DNA of 30,937 nucleotides from a virus, in IMG/VR virus record IMGVR_UViG_3300002483_000049, positions 1-30,937 of that record; one strand, given 5' to 3'. The position numbers and the translations under genes are program-made. The notes under the pieces were generated by a model. That model searched no databases, was not told the DNA's origin, and saw only the letters and a program-made list of their open reading frames with translations. Position 1 is the stretch's first letter; each line of letters opens with the position of its first letter. This document shows, piece by piece, positions 1,711 to 30,266 of the stretch.

Positions 1711-4128
1711 ATGAAATTACGAGAATATCAGCAACTAGGGATACAACTTATAAAACAGGCAATGATAGACAGTAGAAGGGAAGGTAAGCCAAGAAACACT
1801 TTACTTGCTGCGCCATGTGCCTATGGTAAAACAATCACAGCGGCGTACCTTTTGAAAGCGTATCAAGATGCTGGCAAGCGTGGCATTTTTATATGTGATC
1901 GCGTTAAGCTGGTTAATCAGAGTATTACTGCATTTGGTAAGCTGGGCTTAAACTTTGGTGTCATCCAGTCTTTCCACGAACTATACGACGCAAAAAAACC
2001 TATACAAATAGCAAGCGCTCAAAGTTTAGAGAATATGAGAGAGTGGCCTCACGCTGATTTCGTTATCGTAGATGAGTGCTTTAAGGGTGATGTTGAGCTA
2101 TTAACCGAAAAGGGATGGGTTAGGTTTGATCGTTTGGGCGATGAACAGATTGCTCAATATAACGGTGAAACTAGGGGTATTAGTTTCGCTAAACCGTTAA
2201 GAAAAATAAAAAAACCGTACAATGGCAAGATGGTAAAATTTTATTCTGAAAAACTTATGAATCTTACAATGACGGAAGGCCATGAACTGATACAGTTTAG
2301 AAAAGATGGCTCTTATAGAAAAATAAAAGCAAAAGACTGTAAGTTTAATCATTTATGGGAAAATAGAACCGCTGGTTATTCAGTGATAAAAGGCGGTAAG
2401 CTGACACCAATCCAGAGACTTTGCATTGCATATCAAGCGGATGGTAGTAAGCATGGAAACACTAAGGCCGCGTTTCAATTTTCTAAAAAAAGAAAGATAG
2501 ACAGATTTATTGATATTTGCAGTGATGGCGATATAAGCTGGAATGAGACTAAGCCTATACCTTGTGTTAATAATACCAAAGAGCGTAGACGATTTTTTGT
2601 TTCAAACAGCGGCCTCACAAAAGACATTGCTTCACTATTTGATCTTTCTAAAATTGGTTTGGATTTAGCTAGAGAGATAATAGAGGAAATGGTTTGTTGG
2701 GACGGACACAAGCATAGCGACAACTCATACTATTTTAGTAGTGTTGATGAGAGCGCTGTAGACTTTTATCAAGCCGTTTGTGCGTTGGCTGGATATAAGA
2801 CAAATAAGACGATTCAGGTTGACCATAGGAAGGATTCATATAGCGATGTTCATAGACTTTTTATATCTAAAAATGTGGAGGGGTTTAAAGCGCAAGGAAT
2901 GGATAAGGAAACCTATCATTATAAAGGTGAAGTTTATTGCGTGACTGTTGAAACCGGAAATATATTAGTTAGGTCGGGTGGTAAGGTTACGGTTATTGGG
3001 AATTGTCACAGTTTGCGGAAATCTATTCGAGATAAAATGGCAGCGTGGACAGGAGTCCCTTTTCTTGGCTTGTCAGCTACGCCATACAGTAAAGGTTTGG
3101 GTAACTATTTTAGTAAGCTAGTTGTGCCGATTGAGCCTAGACAATTGTTAGAGCAAGGTCATTTATGCCCCGTAGATTATTACGGGGGCAGAAAAGCCAG
3201 TTTAAAGGGTGTTAAAACCAAGAAGTTATCTACAGGTGGTAGCGATTATTTAGATTCTAGTTTGAAGGAAGCCATTGAAAACGACAAAAAGTTAGCTGGC
3301 GACATAGTTAAAAACTGGATTAAGCGAGCCAATGGACGCATGACTATTGCTTTTAGCCCATCCGTCAAACATTCCAAGCACTTGGTTGACTTGTTTAATG
3401 ATGCAGGAATACCGGCCGTTCATATTGATGGCTATATGACATCAGAACAACAAGCAGATATTTATGAAGGCCATAGACAAGGAGATTTTCTCATACTGTC
3501 ATGCTCACGGCTTCTCAATACTGGATACGACGAACCAAAGGTTTTATGTTTAATTGATTGTTACCCTACTAAGTCGATTATTCAATACGTGCAACGCGCA
3601 GGGCGAATTATGCGTACAGCAGAAGGCAAAGAGAATGCTATATACCTAGATCATGCTGGCAATGTGTCGCGTCATGGATTCGCCGAAGATATTGTGCCAG
3701 AAGAGTTGGACGACGAAACAAAAGAATACAACGAGCGTAAACTAACCAAGGATAAGAAAGAGCCTAATATTAAGCAGTGCCCCCAGTGCTATCAAGAAAT
3801 GGCTGGTATTCGCTGTAATAAATGCGGCTATGAAGTGCCGATAAAAGAGCAAATAGAAACAGACAACCAAGAGTTAGAGCAACTGTTAAGCGTGGACGCT
3901 AAAGCATGGCACAAGAAAACTACGCGAGAAGATAAAGAAAAGTTTTATGGCATGCTCAAATACTACGAAAGGCAGAAAGGTTACAAGGCAGGATGGGCGG
4001 CACACAAGTTTAGAGAGCGTTCAGGTGTATGGCCTAACAGCTACAAGTCGGCACCACCACAAGCACCTGACAAGGAATTTATGGGATACATTAAGCACCT
4101 AGCAATAAAACGAAGGTACGCAGCGTGA
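1711..4128 (+). CDS. SF2 DEAD/DEAH-type helicase with intein
   Basis: An 805-aa precursor; after removal of the intein (residues 123-431) the host protein is about 496 aa. Helicase motifs: LREYQ at 3-7, Walker A APCAYGKT at 34-41, motif II DECH formed by joining D121-E122 to C432-H433, SAT at 455-457, and motif VI QRAGRIMR at 628-635. A C-terminal zinc ribbon has C690-x2-C693 and C702-x2-C705. These features fit phage helicases that unwind branched or duplex DNA in replication or recombination. The start has AAGGA seven bases upstream. Its end overlaps the next start (GTGA), so it is coupled to the zinc-finger gene. Without splicing the ATPase is cut inside motif II and would be dead. Confidence 0.92.
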   Translation: MKLREYQQLGIQLIKQAMIDSRREGKPRNTLLAAPCAYGKTITAAYLLKAYQDAGKRGIFICDRVKLVNQSITAFGKLGLNFGVIQSFHELYDAKKPIQIASAQSLENMREWPHADFVIVDECFKGDVELLTEKGWVRFDRLGDEQIAQYNGETRGISFAKPLRKIKKPYNGKMVKFYSEKLMNLTMTEGHELIQFRKDGSYRKIKAKDCKFNHLWENRTAGYSVIKGGKLTPIQRLCIAYQADGSKHGNTKAAFQFSKKRKIDRFIDICSDGDISWNETKPIPCVNNTKERRRFFVSNSGLTKDIASLFDLSKIGLDLAREIIEEMVCWDGHKHSDNSYYFSSVDESAVDFYQAVCALAGYKTNKTIQVDHRKDSYSDVHRLFISKNVEGFKAQGMDKETYHYKGEVYCVTVETGNILVRSGGKVTVIGNCHSLRKSIRDKMAAWTGVPFLGLSATPYSKGLGNYFSKLVVPIEPRQLLEQGHLCPVDYYGGRKASLKGVKTKKLSTGGSDYLDSSLKEAIENDKKLAGDIVKNWIKRANGRMTIAFSPSVKHSKHLVDLFNDAGIPAVHIDGYMTSEQQADIYEGHRQGDFLILSCSRLLNTGYDEPKVLCLIDCYPTKSIIQYVQRAGRIMRTAEGKENAIYLDHAGNVSRHGFAEDIVPEELDDETKEYNERKLTKDKKEPNIKQCPQCYQEMAGIRCNKCGYEVPIKEQIETDNQELEQLLSVDAKAWHKKTTREDKEKFYGMLKYYERQKGYKAGWAAHKFRERSGVWPNSYKSAPPQAPDKEFMGYIKHLAIKRRYAA
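2077..3003 (+). mobile_element. LAGLIDADG homing intein inserted in the helicase DECH box
   Basis: The 309-residue segment starts with Cys (CFKGDVELLTEKGWVRFDRL, intein block A) and ends in VTVIGN followed by extein Cys432. Block B is visible as TMTEGHELI (residues about 187-195). Two dodecapeptide motifs, LCIAYQADG at 237-245 and MVCWDGH around 327-333, mark a LAGLIDADG endonuclease. The penultimate residue is Gly instead of the usual His, which is known in some inteins but may slow Asn cyclisation. The site, between the Glu and Cys of DECH, is typical: inteins occupy residues that cannot be lost, so imprecise deletion is lethal to the host gene. Confidence 0.92.
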
Positions 4129-4589
4129 TAGATCAAACAACAATAAAAGAAATAAAACAAAGATTAAACATTGTCGATGTTATCAGACAGCACCTTGATT
4201 TAAAAAAGGCCGGTAAAAATTATATCGCTTGCTGCCCCTTTCATGGTGAAAAGACTCCTTCTTTTACGGTAAGTGAATCTAAGCAGTTTTATTACTGTTT
4301 TGGTTGCGGCGAGTCTGGCGACCTAATCAAGTTTATTCAAGAGTATAACGGACTGTCTTTCGTGCAGTCTATAAATACGCTATGTGAAATGGCAGGTATT
4401 ACGGCGACAAAAACGGATAATGTATTAGTGCCAAAAAAAATAAGAGATTATTACGCTATGGATAAAGCTATCATCCTAATGGCTAAGGAGTACCAAAACA
4501 ACAATATTAAATTAAGCTATTTAGATAAGCAGCGCTTAAAATTAGCAATAGGCAGGTCGGAAGGAATAGAAAGAAAATGGCAATTATAA
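4125..4589 (+). CDS. Stand-alone CHC2 zinc-finger (DnaG-type primase N-terminal domain), 154 aa
   Basis: Residues 1-95 match the zinc-binding domain of DnaG primases: helix TIKEIKQRLNIVDVI, then C37-P-F-H40 with GEKTPSF, then C58-F-G-C61 with GDLIKFI. In DnaG this domain reads the template for primer initiation. The TOPRIM catalytic domain is missing, and the last 60 residues (lysine-rich, helical) are unrecognised. It overlaps the helicase stop (GTGA), so the pair is translationally coupled. It ends seven bases before a GTTATGC that may mark the left edge of the attC cassette block, so it may have been trimmed by an insertion; alternatively it is a natural short phage protein acting with a host primase. 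Confidence 0.85.
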   Translation: MIDQTTIKEIKQRLNIVDVIRQHLDLKKAGKNYIACCPFHGEKTPSFTVSESKQFYYCFGCGESGDLIKFIQEYNGLSFVQSINTLCEMAGITATKTDNVLVPKKIRDYYAMDKAIILMAKEYQNNNIKLSYLDKQRLKLAIGRSEGIERKWQL

Positions 4590-4744
4590 ATATAGGTTAT
4601 GCTTTTTAATTTATGTATTCATATTGATGATTGTGAATTACTATTTTTATTGTTAGTATTGTTATGTGGTGAAAATGCTTAACAGTATCAGCGAAAGCTA
4701 TGACGCTGGCAGAAGTAGCCACTCCATTTTTTAAAGGGTGACTT
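4590..4744 (+). other. AT-rich gap at the left edge of the cassette block
   Basis: No gene is convincing here; the only start with a stop in frame is a 19-codon frame at 4675. Two GTTATG sequences (GTTATGC at 4596 and GTTATGT at 4660) resemble the R' half of attC, and GCTTAAC at 4677 fits RYYYAAC, but I cannot find a complete hairpin pairing them. One GTT is probably the insertion point of the first cassette (a secondary site or degenerate attI). Confidence 0.4.
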
Positions 4745-4981
4745 ATGAAAAGATTTATGACATTTATGGGAAGTACTTACTATGCGAGCGGTGGAGCTAA
4801 TGATTTTTTAGACAGCTTTAATACTGCCGATGAAGCTATTTTGGCAGGAAAAAAAGCTTGCAGTAAAGATAATCTAATAATCAATGATAATTGGTGGCAC
4901 GTTTACGACACAGAAGAAAATAAAATTATTTATCCTGATGGAACTGACCGCAGCTTGGTCAAGCTCAATGTTGACAGCTAA
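4745..4981 (+). CDS. Cassette 1 gene: 78-aa protein of unknown function
   Basis: The protein begins MKRFMTFMGSTYYASGGANDFL and contains a DEAI stretch and NWWHVYD near the end. The form (short beta strands, YY-x-SGG, NWWHV-x-D) resembles small proteins I associate with integron cassettes and phages; no function is known to me. AAAGGG at 4733-4738 lies six bases before the ATG. The TAA at 4979-4981 is inside the R'' half of attC A, the usual arrangement of a cassette gene. Confidence 0.7.
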   Translation: MKRFMTFMGSTYYASGGANDFLDSFNTADEAILAGKKACSKDNLIINDNWWHVYDTEENKIIYPDGTDRSLVKLNVDS

Positions 4982-5041
4982 CCCTTGCAGACAGGGGCAA
5001 GCACCGAAGGTGCGCAGTCCCGCTGCTATGCGTTGTTATGT
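4976..5041 (+). repeat. attC-like site A
   Basis: R'' is AGCTAAC (4976-4982) and R' is GTTATGT (5035-5041). Between them 4987-4990 pairs with 5023-5026 (GCAG/CTGC), 4994-4997 with 5018-5021 (GGGG/TCCC) and 5001-5005 with 5009-5013 (GCACC/GGTGC, loop GAA). The imperfect hairpin with unpaired spacers between boxes is the structure that integron integrases recognise as single-stranded DNA. Confidence 0.75.
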
Positions 5042-5063
5042 TTCGTTTACCTACGGAGTGATT

Positions 5064-5309
5064 ATGAACAAGCTACAAAAAATGACTTACGCACTGGCAA
5101 AGGCCAGTGATGGAAACCCAGTTATTAGCACTGCTACGGTGATGCTGTTCTATTTGATGTTTAATGTTGTTGAAGCAGGAATAGAAAAACTTATTTTCGG
5201 TGAGCGCTTCGATCACTGGCTTGACCCACTATTTCAGTGCGCATTCATTGCGTATTCGGCCTACGCGGTTTGGTGGTGCGCTGTATTCAATGGCCGCAAA
5301 GAAACATAA
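5064..5309 (+). CDS. Cassette 2 gene: 81-aa membrane protein
   Basis: The ATG at 5064 has GGAG eight to nine bases upstream (5055-5058); longer versions of this frame start inside the previous cassette gene and cross attC A, so I reject them. Two hydrophobic segments (about residues 21-40 and 57-76, rich in F, Y and W) predict a small inner-membrane protein with two passes. No family is recognised. The TAA at 5307-5309 lies in the R'' half of attC B. Confidence 0.7.
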   Translation: MNKLQKMTYALAKASDGNPVISTATVMLFYLMFNVVEAGIEKLIFGERFDHWLDPLFQCAFIAYSAYAVWWCAVFNGRKET

Positions 5310-5370
5310 CGCCCAGATTTGCTGAAATTGTAGCGGAGCGGAAATTTTCAGAAAAAGCGTATTGTTATGC
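5304..5370 (+). repeat. attC-like site B
   Basis: R'' is ACATAAC (5304-5310), R' is GTTATGC (5364-5370), complementary at six of seven positions. The inner arms CTGAAATT and AATTTTCAG pair with one bulge around a GC-rich 12-nt loop. It is 67 nt long and starts exactly at the stop codon of cassette 2. Confidence 0.82.
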
Positions 5371-5380
5371 AGGAAAAAGA

Positions 5381-5686
5381 ATGATTAAACTCGATAAGCA
5401 ATATAGACGACTAAGAAAGGATGTTGTAGCCGAATACAGGCGCATAGTTACGCCTTTATTTTTCTTTAGGATTAAGCCAATAATTTATAAGAGGAATGAA
5501 TATAAAACTAGGATTTTGGGTGGAAGGTATATGATACCTCCTATTCTTTTACCAAAAAGTAAAGCCTATATTAAGGTTGACTGGGTTGATAATAAAGGAA
5601 ACTATGCTTTCGGCGATTTAAAGAAAAGGCTTGAAGTTGAAAATAAAAAAACAGCCAGTAATGTTTTGAGAATAACGCCTTGTTAA
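5381..5686 (+). CDS. Cassette 3 gene: 101-aa basic protein of unknown function
   Basis: The ATG at 5381 follows AGGAAAAAGA (AGGA at 5371). The protein is Lys/Arg/Tyr rich (MIKLDKQYRRLRKDVVAEYRR...) with a middle FFFRIKP and a later KVDWVDNKGNYAFGDLKKR segment. I recognise no domain. Its last codons overlap the 5' arm of attC C, which is common where the stop of a cassette gene lies inside attC. Confidence 0.65.
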   Translation: MIKLDKQYRRLRKDVVAEYRRIVTPLFFFRIKPIIYKRNEYKTRILGGRYMIPPILLPKSKAYIKVDWVDNKGNYAFGDLKKRLEVENKKTASNVLRITPC

Positions 5687-5756
5687 ACGGCGGCGCCAGC
5701 CGTCCGATGGAAGCCGCGCTTTTGCGGCTGGAATGAATTTAAACAACTTGTTATAG
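5670..5756 (+). repeat. attC-like site C
   Basis: R'' GAATAAC (5670-5676) and R' GTTATAG (5750-5756) share the ATAAC/GTTAT core. The 5' arm then has TTGTT (5680-5684) matching AACAA on the 3' side, and CCAGCCG (5696-5702) pairs with CGGCTGG (5725-5731). The apex can also fold as AGCCGC/GCGGCT. About 87 nt in total. Confidence 0.75.
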
Positions 5757-5764
5757 GTAAATAG

Positions 5765-6067
5765 TTATGAGACTTGCACATATTTTCTTACATAATACTC
5801 TGCGTAAATGCAGATTATTTTTTCAGGTATTTTGTAAGACAGAGGAGCTAGAGCAAATGGCGACACACCCAGCAATGAAAATACAGCCAAGGGAGACAAT
5901 TTTGGTTGAGCGTAAATGTATGCCAAAAGAGATAGTCCGGCAACTAAATACCAAAATATAAAGGCAATTATTATAGATATTACCTGCACTAAGACGCATA
6001 TTTTTGCATGCGCGGTGGCGGATTCAAAATTTTTAAATGGTGTGTTTTCATCCGTTGCTGGAAACAT
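5765..6067 (-). CDS. Cassette 4 gene, inverted: 100-aa membrane protein
   Basis: On the minus strand a 100-codon frame fills almost the whole cassette. It has hydrophobic stretches around residues 27-52 (VLVQVISIIIAFIFWYLVAG...) and 56-80, predicting two or three membrane passes. The competing plus-strand frame (5767-5961, 64 aa) shows no membrane or domain pattern and looks like a shadow. A weak AGGT lies eight bases upstream of the minus ATG. Cassette genes are normally aligned with attC, so an inverted one would need its own promoter; minority examples are known in chromosomal integrons. Function unknown. Confidence 0.55.
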   Translation of the reverse strand: MFPATDENTPFKNFESATAHAKICVLVQVISIIIAFIFWYLVAGLSLLAYIYAQPKLSPLAVFSLLGVSPFALAPLSYKIPEKIICIYAEYYVRKYVQVS

Positions 6068-6076
6068 GATTTTTAC

Positions 6077-6143
6077 CTATAACCCCGCGATTAGCGGAAA
6101 ACGAAACGTAGTGTAGTGATTCCGCTACATTGCATTGTTATAA
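6077..6143 (+). repeat. attC-like site D
   Basis: R'' CTATAAC (6077-6083) and R' GTTATAA (6137-6143) are complementary at six of seven positions. The inner arms ATTAGCGGAA (6090-6099) and TTCCGCTACAT (6120-6130) pair fully apart from one unpaired base (C6128). This is the cleanest attC form in the window: two paired boxes, an unpaired spacer and an extrahelical base. 67 nt. Confidence 0.85.
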
Positions 6144-6159
6144 CATGAGGGCATTAGAA

Positions 6160-6342
6160 ATGTTGGGATTTATTGCGACCACTACGGCTTCTGCTGCGAT
6201 TGCAGAGCTTGAATATAGAAGATACTGCAAAGAAAATAATATTGAGCCGATAAGGCTTTCACCGCCGGAAATAAAGGCGCAAGAAGATGAGATTAATCCT
6301 GTGTATTTACTAGCCGCTTTCTGTTTTGGCTTGGCGTTATAA
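6160..6342 (+). CDS. Cassette 5 gene: 60-aa protein with hydrophobic ends
   Basis: I choose the ATG at 6160 because AGGG at 6148-6151 is eight bases upstream; an in-frame ATG at 6145 has no such signal. The protein starts MLGFIATTTASAAIAELEYRR and ends in a hydrophobic NPVYLLAAFCFGLAL, so it may be membrane-anchored. No family recognised. Its TAA (6340-6342) is part of the R'' box of attC E. Confidence 0.6.
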   Translation: MLGFIATTTASAAIAELEYRRYCKENNIEPIRLSPPEIKAQEDEINPVYLLAAFCFGLAL

Positions 6343-6500
6343 CCCTTGGCTATTTGGCGCTTGCGCTAGGAAAAGTAAATTATGAAAAAGCATAGTGTAG
6401 TTTTAAACGATAAAGTAAAACAAAGCGAGGACGCGCAAGCGTCCGACATGAGTCAGTTGTTTTGAGCGCCAATAGGTCGCTCATAATGCAAGTGTTATAT
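6336..6500 (+). repeat. attC-like site E (long form)
   Basis: R'' TTATAAC (6336-6342) and R' GTTATAT (6494-6500) match at six of seven positions. CTATTTGGCGCT (6349-6360) pairs with AGCGCCAATAG (6465-6475) with one bulged T. The long apical region contains a separate perfect hairpin GGACGC-GCAA-GCGTCC (6428-6443). At 165 nt it is at or beyond the long end of attC lengths. Confidence 0.65.
6382..6465 (+). CDS. Possible 27-aa peptide inside attC E
   Basis: A short frame (MKKHSVVLNDKVKQSEDAQ...) with AGGA ten bases upstream ends in TGA at 6463-6465. It covers the apical part of attC E including the GGACGC hairpin. It may be a real micro-gene or chance; I give it low weight. Confidence 0.25.
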   Translation: MKKHSVVLNDKVKQSEDAQASDMSQLF

Positions 6501-6528: not shown

Positions 6529-6810
6529 ATGGGAAAAATAGGTGTATCACTAAAGATTGACGTGACAAAGATTGACAAGCAAAAGTTATTTGCTGGCGCT
6601 AAAGGCACGTATCTTGACGCTACGGTATTTATTGACCTAAACCAAGAAGATCAATATGGGAACCACGGCATGATCACCCAATCTGTAAAGCAGGGCGAGG
6701 ATAAGAACAGCGGCGCTATTTTGGGTAACTGCAAAATATTCTGGCGTGAAGATGGGCAGCAACAACCGCAACAGCAGCAAGAGCAATTTGACAATGATAT
6801 ACCGTTCTAA
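6529..6810 (+). CDS. SSB-like single-stranded DNA-binding protein, 93 aa
   Basis: The protein ends in a Gln-rich linker (QQQPQQQQEQ) followed by FDNDIPF, nearly the same as the acidic tip DFDDDIPF of bacterial SSB that recruits partner proteins. The 80-residue body (MGKIGVSLKIDVTKIDKQKL...) has alternating strands and resembles a family of small phage proteins often placed in replication regions; it is shorter than a normal OB-fold SSB. AGAGGA lies eight bases upstream of the ATG. It is the first phage gene to the right of the cassette block. Confidence 0.65.
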   Translation: MGKIGVSLKIDVTKIDKQKLFAGAKGTYLDATVFIDLNQEDQYGNHGMITQSVKQGEDKNSGAILGNCKIFWREDGQQQPQQQQEQFDNDIPF

Positions 6811-9421: not shown

Positions 9422-9731
9422 CCTTGCTGCAGAAGTAGGCAAACTTGTTTCTTCTTTTAATTCCCACCAAAAAGCAATGGAAAAGCAGGAAAAGGCACAA
9501 TCTAAAATTACGGAAAGGCTCGAAAATGTGCAAGCGGCGCAAGCGTTAGAAATAGCCAAGCTGCGAGAGGAACAAACTAATTATAGAATAGATATAGGGA
9601 AGTCAATAACTAAGATATACACGACGCAACAAGGATTTCTGAGTGTGATCAATAAGGTAGCATTACCCCTGTTGCTGGTATTGCAATCAGCAGGGGCGTT
9701 AATAATATATTTGAAAATGGCTAGTGGCTAG
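9327..9731 (+). CDS. Coiled-coil protein with C-terminal membrane anchor, 134 aa
   Basis: The ATG at 9327 has AGGA six bases upstream; an upstream start at 9303 lies in the previous gene. Residues about 10-90 are a long charged heptad pattern (DKIDQQRNDFQKEV...), and residues about 108-130 are hydrophobic (VALPLLLVLQSAGALIIYL). A coiled coil next to one membrane span is spanin-like, but in classic i-spanins the span is at the N-terminus, so the topology is reversed. It converges with a minus gene, overlapping by 11 bases. Confidence 0.65.
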   Translation: MSITLQDIKEIYDKIDQQRNDFQKEVATPLNNLAAEVGKLVSSFNSHQKAMEKQEKAQSKITERLENVQAAQALEIAKLREEQTNYRIDIGKSITKIYTTQQGFLSVINKVALPLLLVLQSAGALIIYLKMASG

Positions 9732-9969
9732 GTCTATAACCTTCAATTAATGCGATAACATCCTTTTTTAACACAAACTCGTTACATTCCACTGCACAGC
9801 CTTGTAAAACAATTTTGAATAGTTGAGGGTTTTCCCTGTGCCACCTTATGATGGTGTCCTGATTCTTATTTGCTAGTTTGCATACTTGAGCTAGGCTTTT
9901 AAGACCTAATGTTTTGGCTTGATCTGATGGTTTATTGCTCATTGTATATGCCTTATTTATATTGTTCAT
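9721..9969 (-). CDS. Small HTH-like protein, 82 aa
   Basis: Residues about 25-55 (SLAQVCKLANKNQDTIIRWH...) fit a helix-turn-helix with Trp in the second helix, as in small phage DNA-binding proteins that use a DNA-binding domain of the MerR/Cro size. The first ATG has GGAG ten bases upstream; a second in-frame ATG at 9942 has AAGG, and either may serve. It is the last gene of a four-gene minus operon. Confidence 0.6.
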   Translation of the reverse strand: MNNINKAYTMSNKPSDQAKTLGLKSLAQVCKLANKNQDTIIRWHRENPQLFKIVLQGCAVECNEFVLKKDVIALIEGYRPSH

Positions 9970-10172: not shown

Positions 10173-10370
10173 TTATAGAGGGTGATTATCGCCATCATGC
10201 CAACCTAGACGGTTGCCTTGGTGGTTGCCAAAATGCAAGCCTATATGATCACCCAAATGGTCGCCGATTAAATCACCGACCAGTCTAGTCAAATAGACCT
10301 CGCCGTTCTCATCAACATCAAAATCTAGATTGTCTTTTATGAACTTAGCAATTAACTGTTCTTTGTTCAT
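10173..10370 (-). CDS. Short GNH-repeat paralogue, 65 aa
   Basis: Starts MNKEQLIAKFIKDNLDFDV and continues ENGEVYLTRLVGDLIGDH, almost the same as the first 38 residues of the long repeat protein at 29607-30266. It then has about seven degenerate G-x-H-x units (GDHL, GDHI, GLHF, GNHQ, GNRL, GWHD). I prefer the ATG at 10370 (matching the paralogue and seven bases from AGGTG) to the one at 10379. Function unknown; the shared N-terminal domain proves a family with variable repeat tails. Confidence 0.75.
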   Translation of the reverse strand: MNKEQLIAKFIKDNLDFDVDENGEVYLTRLVGDLIGDHLGDHIGLHFGNHQGNRLGWHDGDNHPL

Positions 10371-10379
10371 TTCATTCAC

Positions 10380-29048: not shown

Positions 29049-29610
29049 TTTTCAGCCTATTAATAACATTATTAAATACATTTGCGGGTAGCTTATCCAG
29101 TGATTCAATTTTATAAGCAGCAGTTACCCGCTTACCTAGATCGTTTAACTCTTGCCCTTCTGGGCTGACATCCATGCAATAGGTGGATAGCTCGCTTAGT
29201 TGCTCTTTGCTAATTAACGTTTGCTGTTGGCTGTTATCGTTACTATCTGCATCCTTTGTATCGTCAGTAGCAAACAAACCGTTTAGCGCATTCTTACGTG
29301 CATACGATGACGCTGCACCAGTTATTTGCGACTCGTCCATGCCTTTTTTGGCAATAGGCTCTCGTGCATACGCGGTTGTGGATTCTAGGCATTTTTCATT
29401 ATGGTATAGGCTTGCCGTTGCTTCTACATAGATTCTATCACCTACCATTACTATTTTGTCGGACAACGTTACATGGCACCCCGTTTCTTTTAATGGTGCT
29501 TTTAGCGCCTGAAGTATATCCTCACAATTTCTATATTTGTATTTACCGAACTGGTTGTATTGGCCTTTAGGTGCTTTTAATTCTTGTTGAATGTATAGTA
29601 ACCTGCTCAT
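29032..29610 (-). CDS. erf: Erf-family single-strand annealing protein, 192 aa
   Basis: GQYNQFGKYKYRNCEDILQA near residue 16 and MDESQITGAASSYARKNALN (91-110), followed by GLFATDDTKDAD, are clear ERF signatures. The P22 Erf-type protein anneals ssDNA and circularises or repairs the genome together with the exonuclease. The C-terminal third is a likely linker and small helical domain. ATGA overlap with the GNH-repeat gene upstream. Confidence 0.93.
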   Translation of the reverse strand: MSRLLYIQQELKAPKGQYNQFGKYKYRNCEDILQALKAPLKETGCHVTLSDKIVMVGDRIYVEATASLYHNEKCLESTTAYAREPIAKKGMDESQITGAASSYARKNALNGLFATDDTKDADSNDNSQQQTLISKEQLSELSTYCMDVSPEGQELNDLGKRVTAAYKIESLDKLPANVFNNVINRLKNENNQ

Positions 29611-30266
29611 TTTGTTTCTCCTATATGATCGCCTACGTGATAGCCTTTGTGATCGCCGTAGTGATTGCCTTCGTGATCGCCGTAGTGATCGCCTACGTGA
29701 TTGCCTACGTGATTGCCGTAGTGATAGCCATCGTGATTGCCTTCGTGATAGCCTACGTGATTGCCTACGTGATCGCCATCGTGATTGCCGTGGTGATTGC
29801 CTTCGTGATTGCCGTGGTGATAGCCTACGTGATTGCCTACGTGATCGCCATCGTGATTGCCGTGGTGATTGCCTTCGTGATTGCCGTGGTGATAGCCTTC
29901 GTGATAGCCTTCGTGATTGCCGTAGTGATCGCCTTCGTGATCGCCTTCGTGATTGCCGTAGTGATCGCCATCGTGATTGCCTACGTGATTGCCGTAGTGA
30001 TTGCCTACGTGATTGCCTACGTGATTGCCATCGTGATTGCCTACGTGATTGCCTTCGTGATTGCCGTGGTGATAGCCTTTGTGATCGCCGTAGTGATTGC
30101 CTTCGTGATTGCCGTAGTGATCGCCATCGTGATTGCCTACGTGATTGCCTACGTGATCGCCTATCAAGTCACCGTATAACTTGGTTAAATAAACCTCTCC
30201 GTTATCATTGACACCAAAAGATAAATTTCTTTGTATAAACTGTGCGATTAACTTTTCTTTGTTCAT
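29607..30266 (-). CDS. Long GNH-repeat protein, 219 aa
   Basis: A 35-residue N-terminal domain (MNKEKLIAQFIQRNLSFGVN, DNGEVYLTKLYGDLI) is followed by 45 tandem four-residue units G-[N/D/Y]-H-x (residues 36-215), with x nearly always V, E, Y, D, H or K, and a short GETK end. Every unit has His, giving 45 His in 180 residues; a metal-binding or regular solenoid form is possible but unproven. A short paralogue lies at 10173-10370. It is coupled by ATGA to the erf gene, so it belongs to the early recombination operon. All three plus-strand frames are largely open because of the 12-bp period; I reject them. Confidence 0.8.
   Translation of the reverse strand: MNKEKLIAQFIQRNLSFGVNDNGEVYLTKLYGDLIGDHVGNHVGNHDGDHYGNHEGNHYGDHKGYHHGNHEGNHVGNHDGNHVGNHVGNHYGNHVGNHDGDHYGNHEGDHEGDHYGNHEGYHEGYHHGNHEGNHHGNHDGDHVGNHVGYHHGNHEGNHHGNHDGDHVGNHVGYHEGNHDGYHYGNHVGNHVGDHYGDHEGNHYGDHKGYHVGDHIGETK
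29622..30161 (-). repeat. 12-bp tandem repeat, 45 units
   Basis: The coding array has period 12 with an almost fixed part (plus strand GTGATYGCC) and a variable triplet drawn from about six codons. Length is 540 bases. Such arrays change copy number by slippage and by recombination between units. Confidence 0.95.

Follow-up and report, generated by a model that had tools for sequence, protein, structure and literature searches.

IMG/VR record IMGVR_UViG_3300002483_000049 is a virus contig of 30,937 bases, and the whole of it was analyzed here (hereafter referred to as the window). It encodes a podophage gene set comprising a head-tail connector, a major head protein, tail proteins, and a terminase, together with an Erf-like annealing protein (phrog_155, E 7.7e-39) and a RecE-like exonuclease. 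The connector is approximately 30% identical to the connectors encoded by Vibrio podophages 31-35 kb in size. Both ends of the window are matched by a sibling contig (G001, also L173), in which they are bridged by about 1.3 kb (2807-4077 in array orientation) with a small helix-turn-helix-like gene inside. Since this contig joins both ends, the genome probably has a circular map of about 32 kb, nearly all of which is in view.

The genes and sites at the locus are given below. Sites were searched with two covariance models: R1, built from 12 attCs of intI-carrying Vibrio and Shewanella integrons and containing no site of this phage, and R2, built from 28 sites in arrays of other phages. The E-values of both models are rough, as calibration was short.

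4125..4589, plus strand: left flank, phage Zn-ribbon (DnaG-type) primase fragment (PF01807, E 1.7e-39; phrog DNA primase, 1.5e-43)
4590..4744, plus strand: left junction of the array (from the alignment with G001)
4745..4981, plus strand: cassette gene c1, 78 aa (ORF)
4976-5041, minus strand: attC site 1 (R2 19.7 bits, E 0.0068; no R1 match)
5064..5309, plus strand: cassette gene c2, 81 aa (relative in phage L183)
5304-5370, minus strand: attC site 2 (R1 17.1 bits, E 0.038; R2 E 0.37)
5381..5686, plus strand: cassette gene c3, 101 aa (ORF)
5670-5756, minus strand: attC site 3, the most integron-like (R1 25.6 bits, E 1.7e-4)
5765..6067, minus strand: cassette gene c4, 100 aa with a hydrophobic sequence (ORF)
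6077-6143, minus strand: attC site 4 (R1 27.6 bits, E 4.5e-5; R2 E 4e-4)
6148..6342, plus strand: cassette gene c5, 64 aa (ORF)
6337-6500, minus strand: attC-like hairpin 5 at the right end, 164 bp, weakly supported (fold with R boxes paired)
6529..6810, plus strand: right flank, 93-aa phage gene (phrog_24909, a PHROG of unknown function)

The original prediction had placed the block between genes for a zinc-finger protein and an SSB. The former agrees with the Zn-ribbon primase found by PF01807, whereas the latter was not confirmed by protein families, in which the right-hand gene matches only phrog_24909. The primase fragment is kept in contigs L002 and G003, and relatives of the right-hand gene also adjoin arrays in G003 and in L073-L123. 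The window and G001 part ways just past TTTATTGTTA (~4660), and the left junction contains no complete attC.

Among the cassette genes, c1 has no Pfam match and no relative among viral contigs or plasmids, and neither c3, whose stop codon falls within attC site 3, nor c5 has a significant Pfam match (none at all for c3). The relative of c2 in phage L183 has 81% amino acid identity, with similarity stopping at ACATAA|C, and the c2 protein has no relative among plasmids. Relatives of c4 occur in other phage arrays (31% aa to L077). Elsewhere in the window, a small DNA-binding-like protein (9721-9969, minus strand) resembles a cassette gene of other arrays (the AKSVGLKSLTQV... family), a resemblance that may link the resident with the cassette form.

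All five hairpins of the original prediction are present, with the quoted boxes on the stop-codon side (AGCTAAC, ACATAAC, GAATAAC, CTATAAC, and TTATAAC) and on the opposite side (GTTATGT, GTTATGC, GTTATAG, GTTATAA, and GTTATAT) and with GTT-to-GTT distances of 329, 386, 387, and 357 bases, as expected for cassettes. They were also said to lie each at the stop codon of a small gene, but not all of them come after the stop of a plus-strand gene, as the gene between sites 3 and 4 is on the minus strand (5765-6067). Scanning of the 31-kb window by R1 (default filters, E<=10) yielded three matches only, all of them at these hairpins and on the minus strand. R2 also yielded three matches only, again all on the minus strand, one of which is the site missed by R1. 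With R1 and R2, a covariance-model check of the kind suggested in advance gave several matches at the named borders, and model support extends to four of the five sites, three of which are matched by each model; the hairpin at 6337-6500 folds well, although it was matched by neither R1 nor R2. R1 gave no match at E<=1 in ten array-free related phage loci. With the filters turned off, both models gave the sites poor scores and ranked short local artefacts highest, a further reason to treat the E-values as rough, and the default-filter results were used; a home-made attC scanner proved too weak. Neither an Rfam gathering search nor a tRNA search gave any match.

That structure is kept while sequence is not could be confirmed in the 28 sites from other phages. 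Across the 14 R-box and L-box pairs, pairing was found in 82% of cells, compared to 66% in shuffles, and the covariation score is 0.383, compared to 0.128 for shuffled sites and <=0.140 when the partner was slid by one to three columns. Moreover, both-sided changes were observed in all seven L-box pairs (7/7). Pairing of R and L boxes despite varied sequence, along with an extra-helical base, was thus found in the sites of relatives as well as in the folds and model matches of the window. The window hairpins are attC-type sites, and R1 and R2 bear out the proposed integron-like cassette array in a phage genome. The idea that the hairpins are mere terminators was dropped, as the integron-trained model picks them out.

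All model matches in the window are antisense to the phage operon, whereas matches in true integrons lie on the gene-sense strand. Of the 44 classifiable cassettes in the relatives, 39 are inverted and 5 canonical, and another 15 cassettes are ambiguous, compared to 0 inverted, 12 canonical, and 0 ambiguous in true integrons (Fisher p ~1e-8, uncorrected for near-duplicate contigs, some of which inflate the counts). Similarly, RYYYAAC followed by AA is found on the antisense strand in 29/29 phage sites and on the gene-sense strand in 18/20 integron sites, and the extra-helical base is on the plus L' side in sites such as 6077-6143. The same direction of gene and site, as in a typical cassette, was found for c4 alone of the five in the window and for 5/44 in relatives; the attC of c4 is also the one most like bacterial sites. 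The attC models, spacer bases, extra-helical bases, and boundaries of shared cassettes agree in making the minus strand the canonical attC strand of the window, with a predicted crossover at RYYYAA^C on the plus strand. The true R' box, as judged from these features, is the complement of the stop-codon box, and the stop-codon end is the predicted cut side. This reverses the polarity originally assigned, in which the AGCTAAC/ACATAAC series was taken as R'', the GTTATGT series as R', and G-TT as the crossover point.

Similar arrays with different cassettes were detected near replication/recombination genes in about 13 distinct marine phage contigs by R2 and viral-contig scans, G010 and G005 each carrying two of them; almost none were detected when R2 was applied to 46 other loci containing relatives of the gene at 6529. 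At the exact position of the window array, G003 carries about six cassettes that differ from those of the window, and G001 has flanks 96% identical to those of the window with unrelated sequence between them. These two cases show that array content changes faster than anything around it. Site 2 matches a G003 site (92% over 53 bp) that adjoins a different gene, and the site 3 type is also present in G017 and G037. The otherwise unrelated G009 and G035 have one cassette in common (259+ bp at 99.6%) and nothing else; this stretch starts at the left attC and stops at ACATAAC, which indicates that the unit is the left attC plus the gene to its right. In addition, 222 bp at 96% identity are common to G013 and G035, which otherwise have only short attC-type matches. 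These alignments show single attC-plus-gene units to be present in phages that are otherwise unrelated, the breaks lying at RYYYAA^C. The simple rule of one attC plus one gene does not fit every exchange, as the genes of the unit common to G010 and G013 are kept and its left attC is different. The comparison of related phages therefore showed the anticipated presence, absence, and exchange of single cassettes, with the breaks at AA^C and not at G-TT.

Two further observations were made on the cassettes of other contigs. One attC (L133 10424-10486) is chimeric, with halves from two attC types, as would result from a crossover within the inner stem. Two cassettes (L133 11074-11179 and L136 8010-8110) have in common a promoter-like stretch that follows the attC, and some cassettes may carry their own promoter.

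In ten arrays, TAA-C marks the end of the last gene, after which comes one of two conserved elements. For eight of the arrays, mean pairwise identity is 30% to the left of the AA^C point and 88% to its right. The element, 68 bp in length, contains inverted repeats and a single R box in the fashion of attI, and we infer that it represents a putative attI of the relatives. It is absent from the right end of the window array itself and was not found in cultured phages.

No PF00589/tyrosine recombinase or IntI was detected on any array contig, most of which are fragments. The window has no match to PF00589 or TIGR02249, and the 1.3-kb gap filled by G001 contains no PF00589/IntI match. The intI gene of a complete integron is therefore missing from the window and the array contigs, and the block is a CALIN (a cluster of attC sites without integrase), with at least two clustered attC sites and no nearby integron integrase. 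As to the origin of the sites, one attC type that is common in the phage arrays turned up in 12 viral stretches, compared to only two stretches among approximately 85,000 species genomes, and one of these two, when read, proved to be unrelated and to lie within a pilin-like gene. Site 3 bears a partial resemblance to attCs on plasmids of Pseudoalteromonas and Photobacterium, with 79% identity over 56 bases to an attC of Pseudoalteromonas rhizosphaerae plasmid p1 (NZ_CP118497), and this likeness leaves room for exchange with bacteria.

The cargo sample comprises 48 cassette proteins, most of which are short and few of which could be identified. The identified ones include two DNA adenine/N4-type methylases, a Lar-type restriction-alleviation protein, PAPS-reductase-like proteins, an ASCH protein, and a DUF551 protein, all of which are kinds of gene often met in phages. 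Several of the cargo genes would counter restriction. Given this partly phage-typical cargo and the near confinement of the common attC type to viral stretches, the original suggestion that the cassettes were captured from a host chromosomal integron is not borne out.

CALINs are already known in virulent phages, namely Pseudoalteromonas phage PH101/H101, Tetrasphaera phage TJE1, and Polaribacter phage P12002L, and recombination by IntI1 with attI1 was obtained for five of the six phage sites tested (Qi et al. 2023, PMC9892861). Like the window block, they are attC clusters without intI in a phage. When R1 was applied to PH101, four sites were found (E 5e-4 to 4e-6, from the same rough calibration); in this region (75919-77987, or 25919-27987 of L180), the attCs are on the plus strand and the annotated genes on the minus strand, an inverted arrangement like that of the window, of which no mention was found in the text of PMC9892861. 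The TJE1 sites are in the canonical direction, unlike most arrays here. Also unlike the published phage CALINs, the arrays here recur at similar positions in many contigs, have cassettes in common between unrelated phages, and often end on the right with the attI-like element. They resemble the chromosomal integrons of Vibrio and Shewanella in their R boxes, unpaired spacers, L boxes with an extra-helical base, and variable inner part, but differ from them in lacking intI, in having most genes inverted, and in spacer consensus (AAC...GGTTA in phage sites and AAG...GGCGTTA in Vibrio/Shewanella integrons). In the array of the P. rhizosphaerae plasmid mentioned above, all genes are canonical, unlike those of the window. 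Whereas phage CALINs and their recombination by IntI1 were known, what is new here is the inverted genes, the recurrent arrays with cassette exchange between phages, the common right-end element, and the anti-restriction cargo. No description of the inverted direction, of recurrence with exchange between unrelated phages, or of a common right-end element was found in the open-licence PubMed Central papers searched.

It is likely that the window contains a real integron-type array without integrase in a podophage of about 32 kb, one of a wider marine set, and that its cassettes are swapped by an IntI acting in trans, which would be the simplest reading of cassette movement. The integron integrase would come from the host, or from a further element present in the cell, and would recognise the folded attC, whose recombinogenic bottom strand would be the phage gene-sense strand. 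Cassettes would then be swapped or inserted, newcomers entering beside the attI-like element, and their genes would be transcribed with the phage early/replication operon; selection for such joint transcription would account for the inversion of most genes with respect to attC. The chances seem evenly balanced that marine phages maintain a cassette pool of their own, with an attI-like site and inverted, phage-adapted cassettes carrying phage and anti-restriction genes, exchanged by host-supplied IntI.

Stretches of host chromosomal integrons could instead have been taken up by ordinary recombination, their host genes now only drifting, as Qi et al. (PMC9892861) proposed for phage CALINs. The canonical cassette of site 3 and c4, whose attC resembles those of Pseudoalteromonas and Photobacterium plasmids, fits such passenger capture. 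It is nevertheless unlikely, as most genes are inverted relative to attC, unlike in host integrons, phage-type genes are among the cargo, near-identical single cassettes occur in unrelated phages, and the common attC type of the 12 viral stretches was seen in no examined integron (~85,000 species genomes). Integrase-free shuffling, in which Erf and the exonuclease swap modules at hairpins that are only terminator-like gene-end repeats, is very unlikely. The two enzymes are indeed encoded in the window, and the chimeric site in L133 looks like a crossover within two attCs, but the breaks are located at the outer AA^C, where the shared sequence to either side amounts to only about 6-8 bp, the sites were found by a model trained on true integron attCs, and their stem is kept by covariation while the sequence varies. 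A dedicated phage integron, with its own so far unrecognised recombinase in the phages or in a partner element, would account for the conserved attI-like right ends in many phages, the presence of two arrays in each of the phages G010 and G005, and the fact that one attC type was not observed in genomes; the window plus the G001 gap make up almost the entire circle without PF00589 or IntI match, and no candidate recombinase gene was seen, which makes this reading highly improbable. If movement by IntI in trans is true, integrons would be a route of gene exchange beyond bacteria, among lytic viruses too, and phages would rely on a host recombinase for reshuffling their accessory genes, anti-restriction genes among them, one by one. 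It also offers an account, open to testing, of highly localized gene turnover between otherwise near-identical phages, and provides a natural case of genes inverted relative to attC, which bears on cassette origin and strand choice.

Besides the array, the helicase ORF of the window (1711-4128) is interrupted by roughly 300 residues that resemble an intein (phrog_12229 match at 105-432), and the same helicase in G003/L069 is without it (HSPs 1-123 and 427-805 adjoin). Short GNHxGDH-type repeat proteins are encoded at 29607-30266 (minus strand), 10173-10379 (minus strand), and also 1-240 by near-tandem DNA repeats, and their length varies among siblings. These repeats sit close to the contig ends and may have caused the assembly to break.
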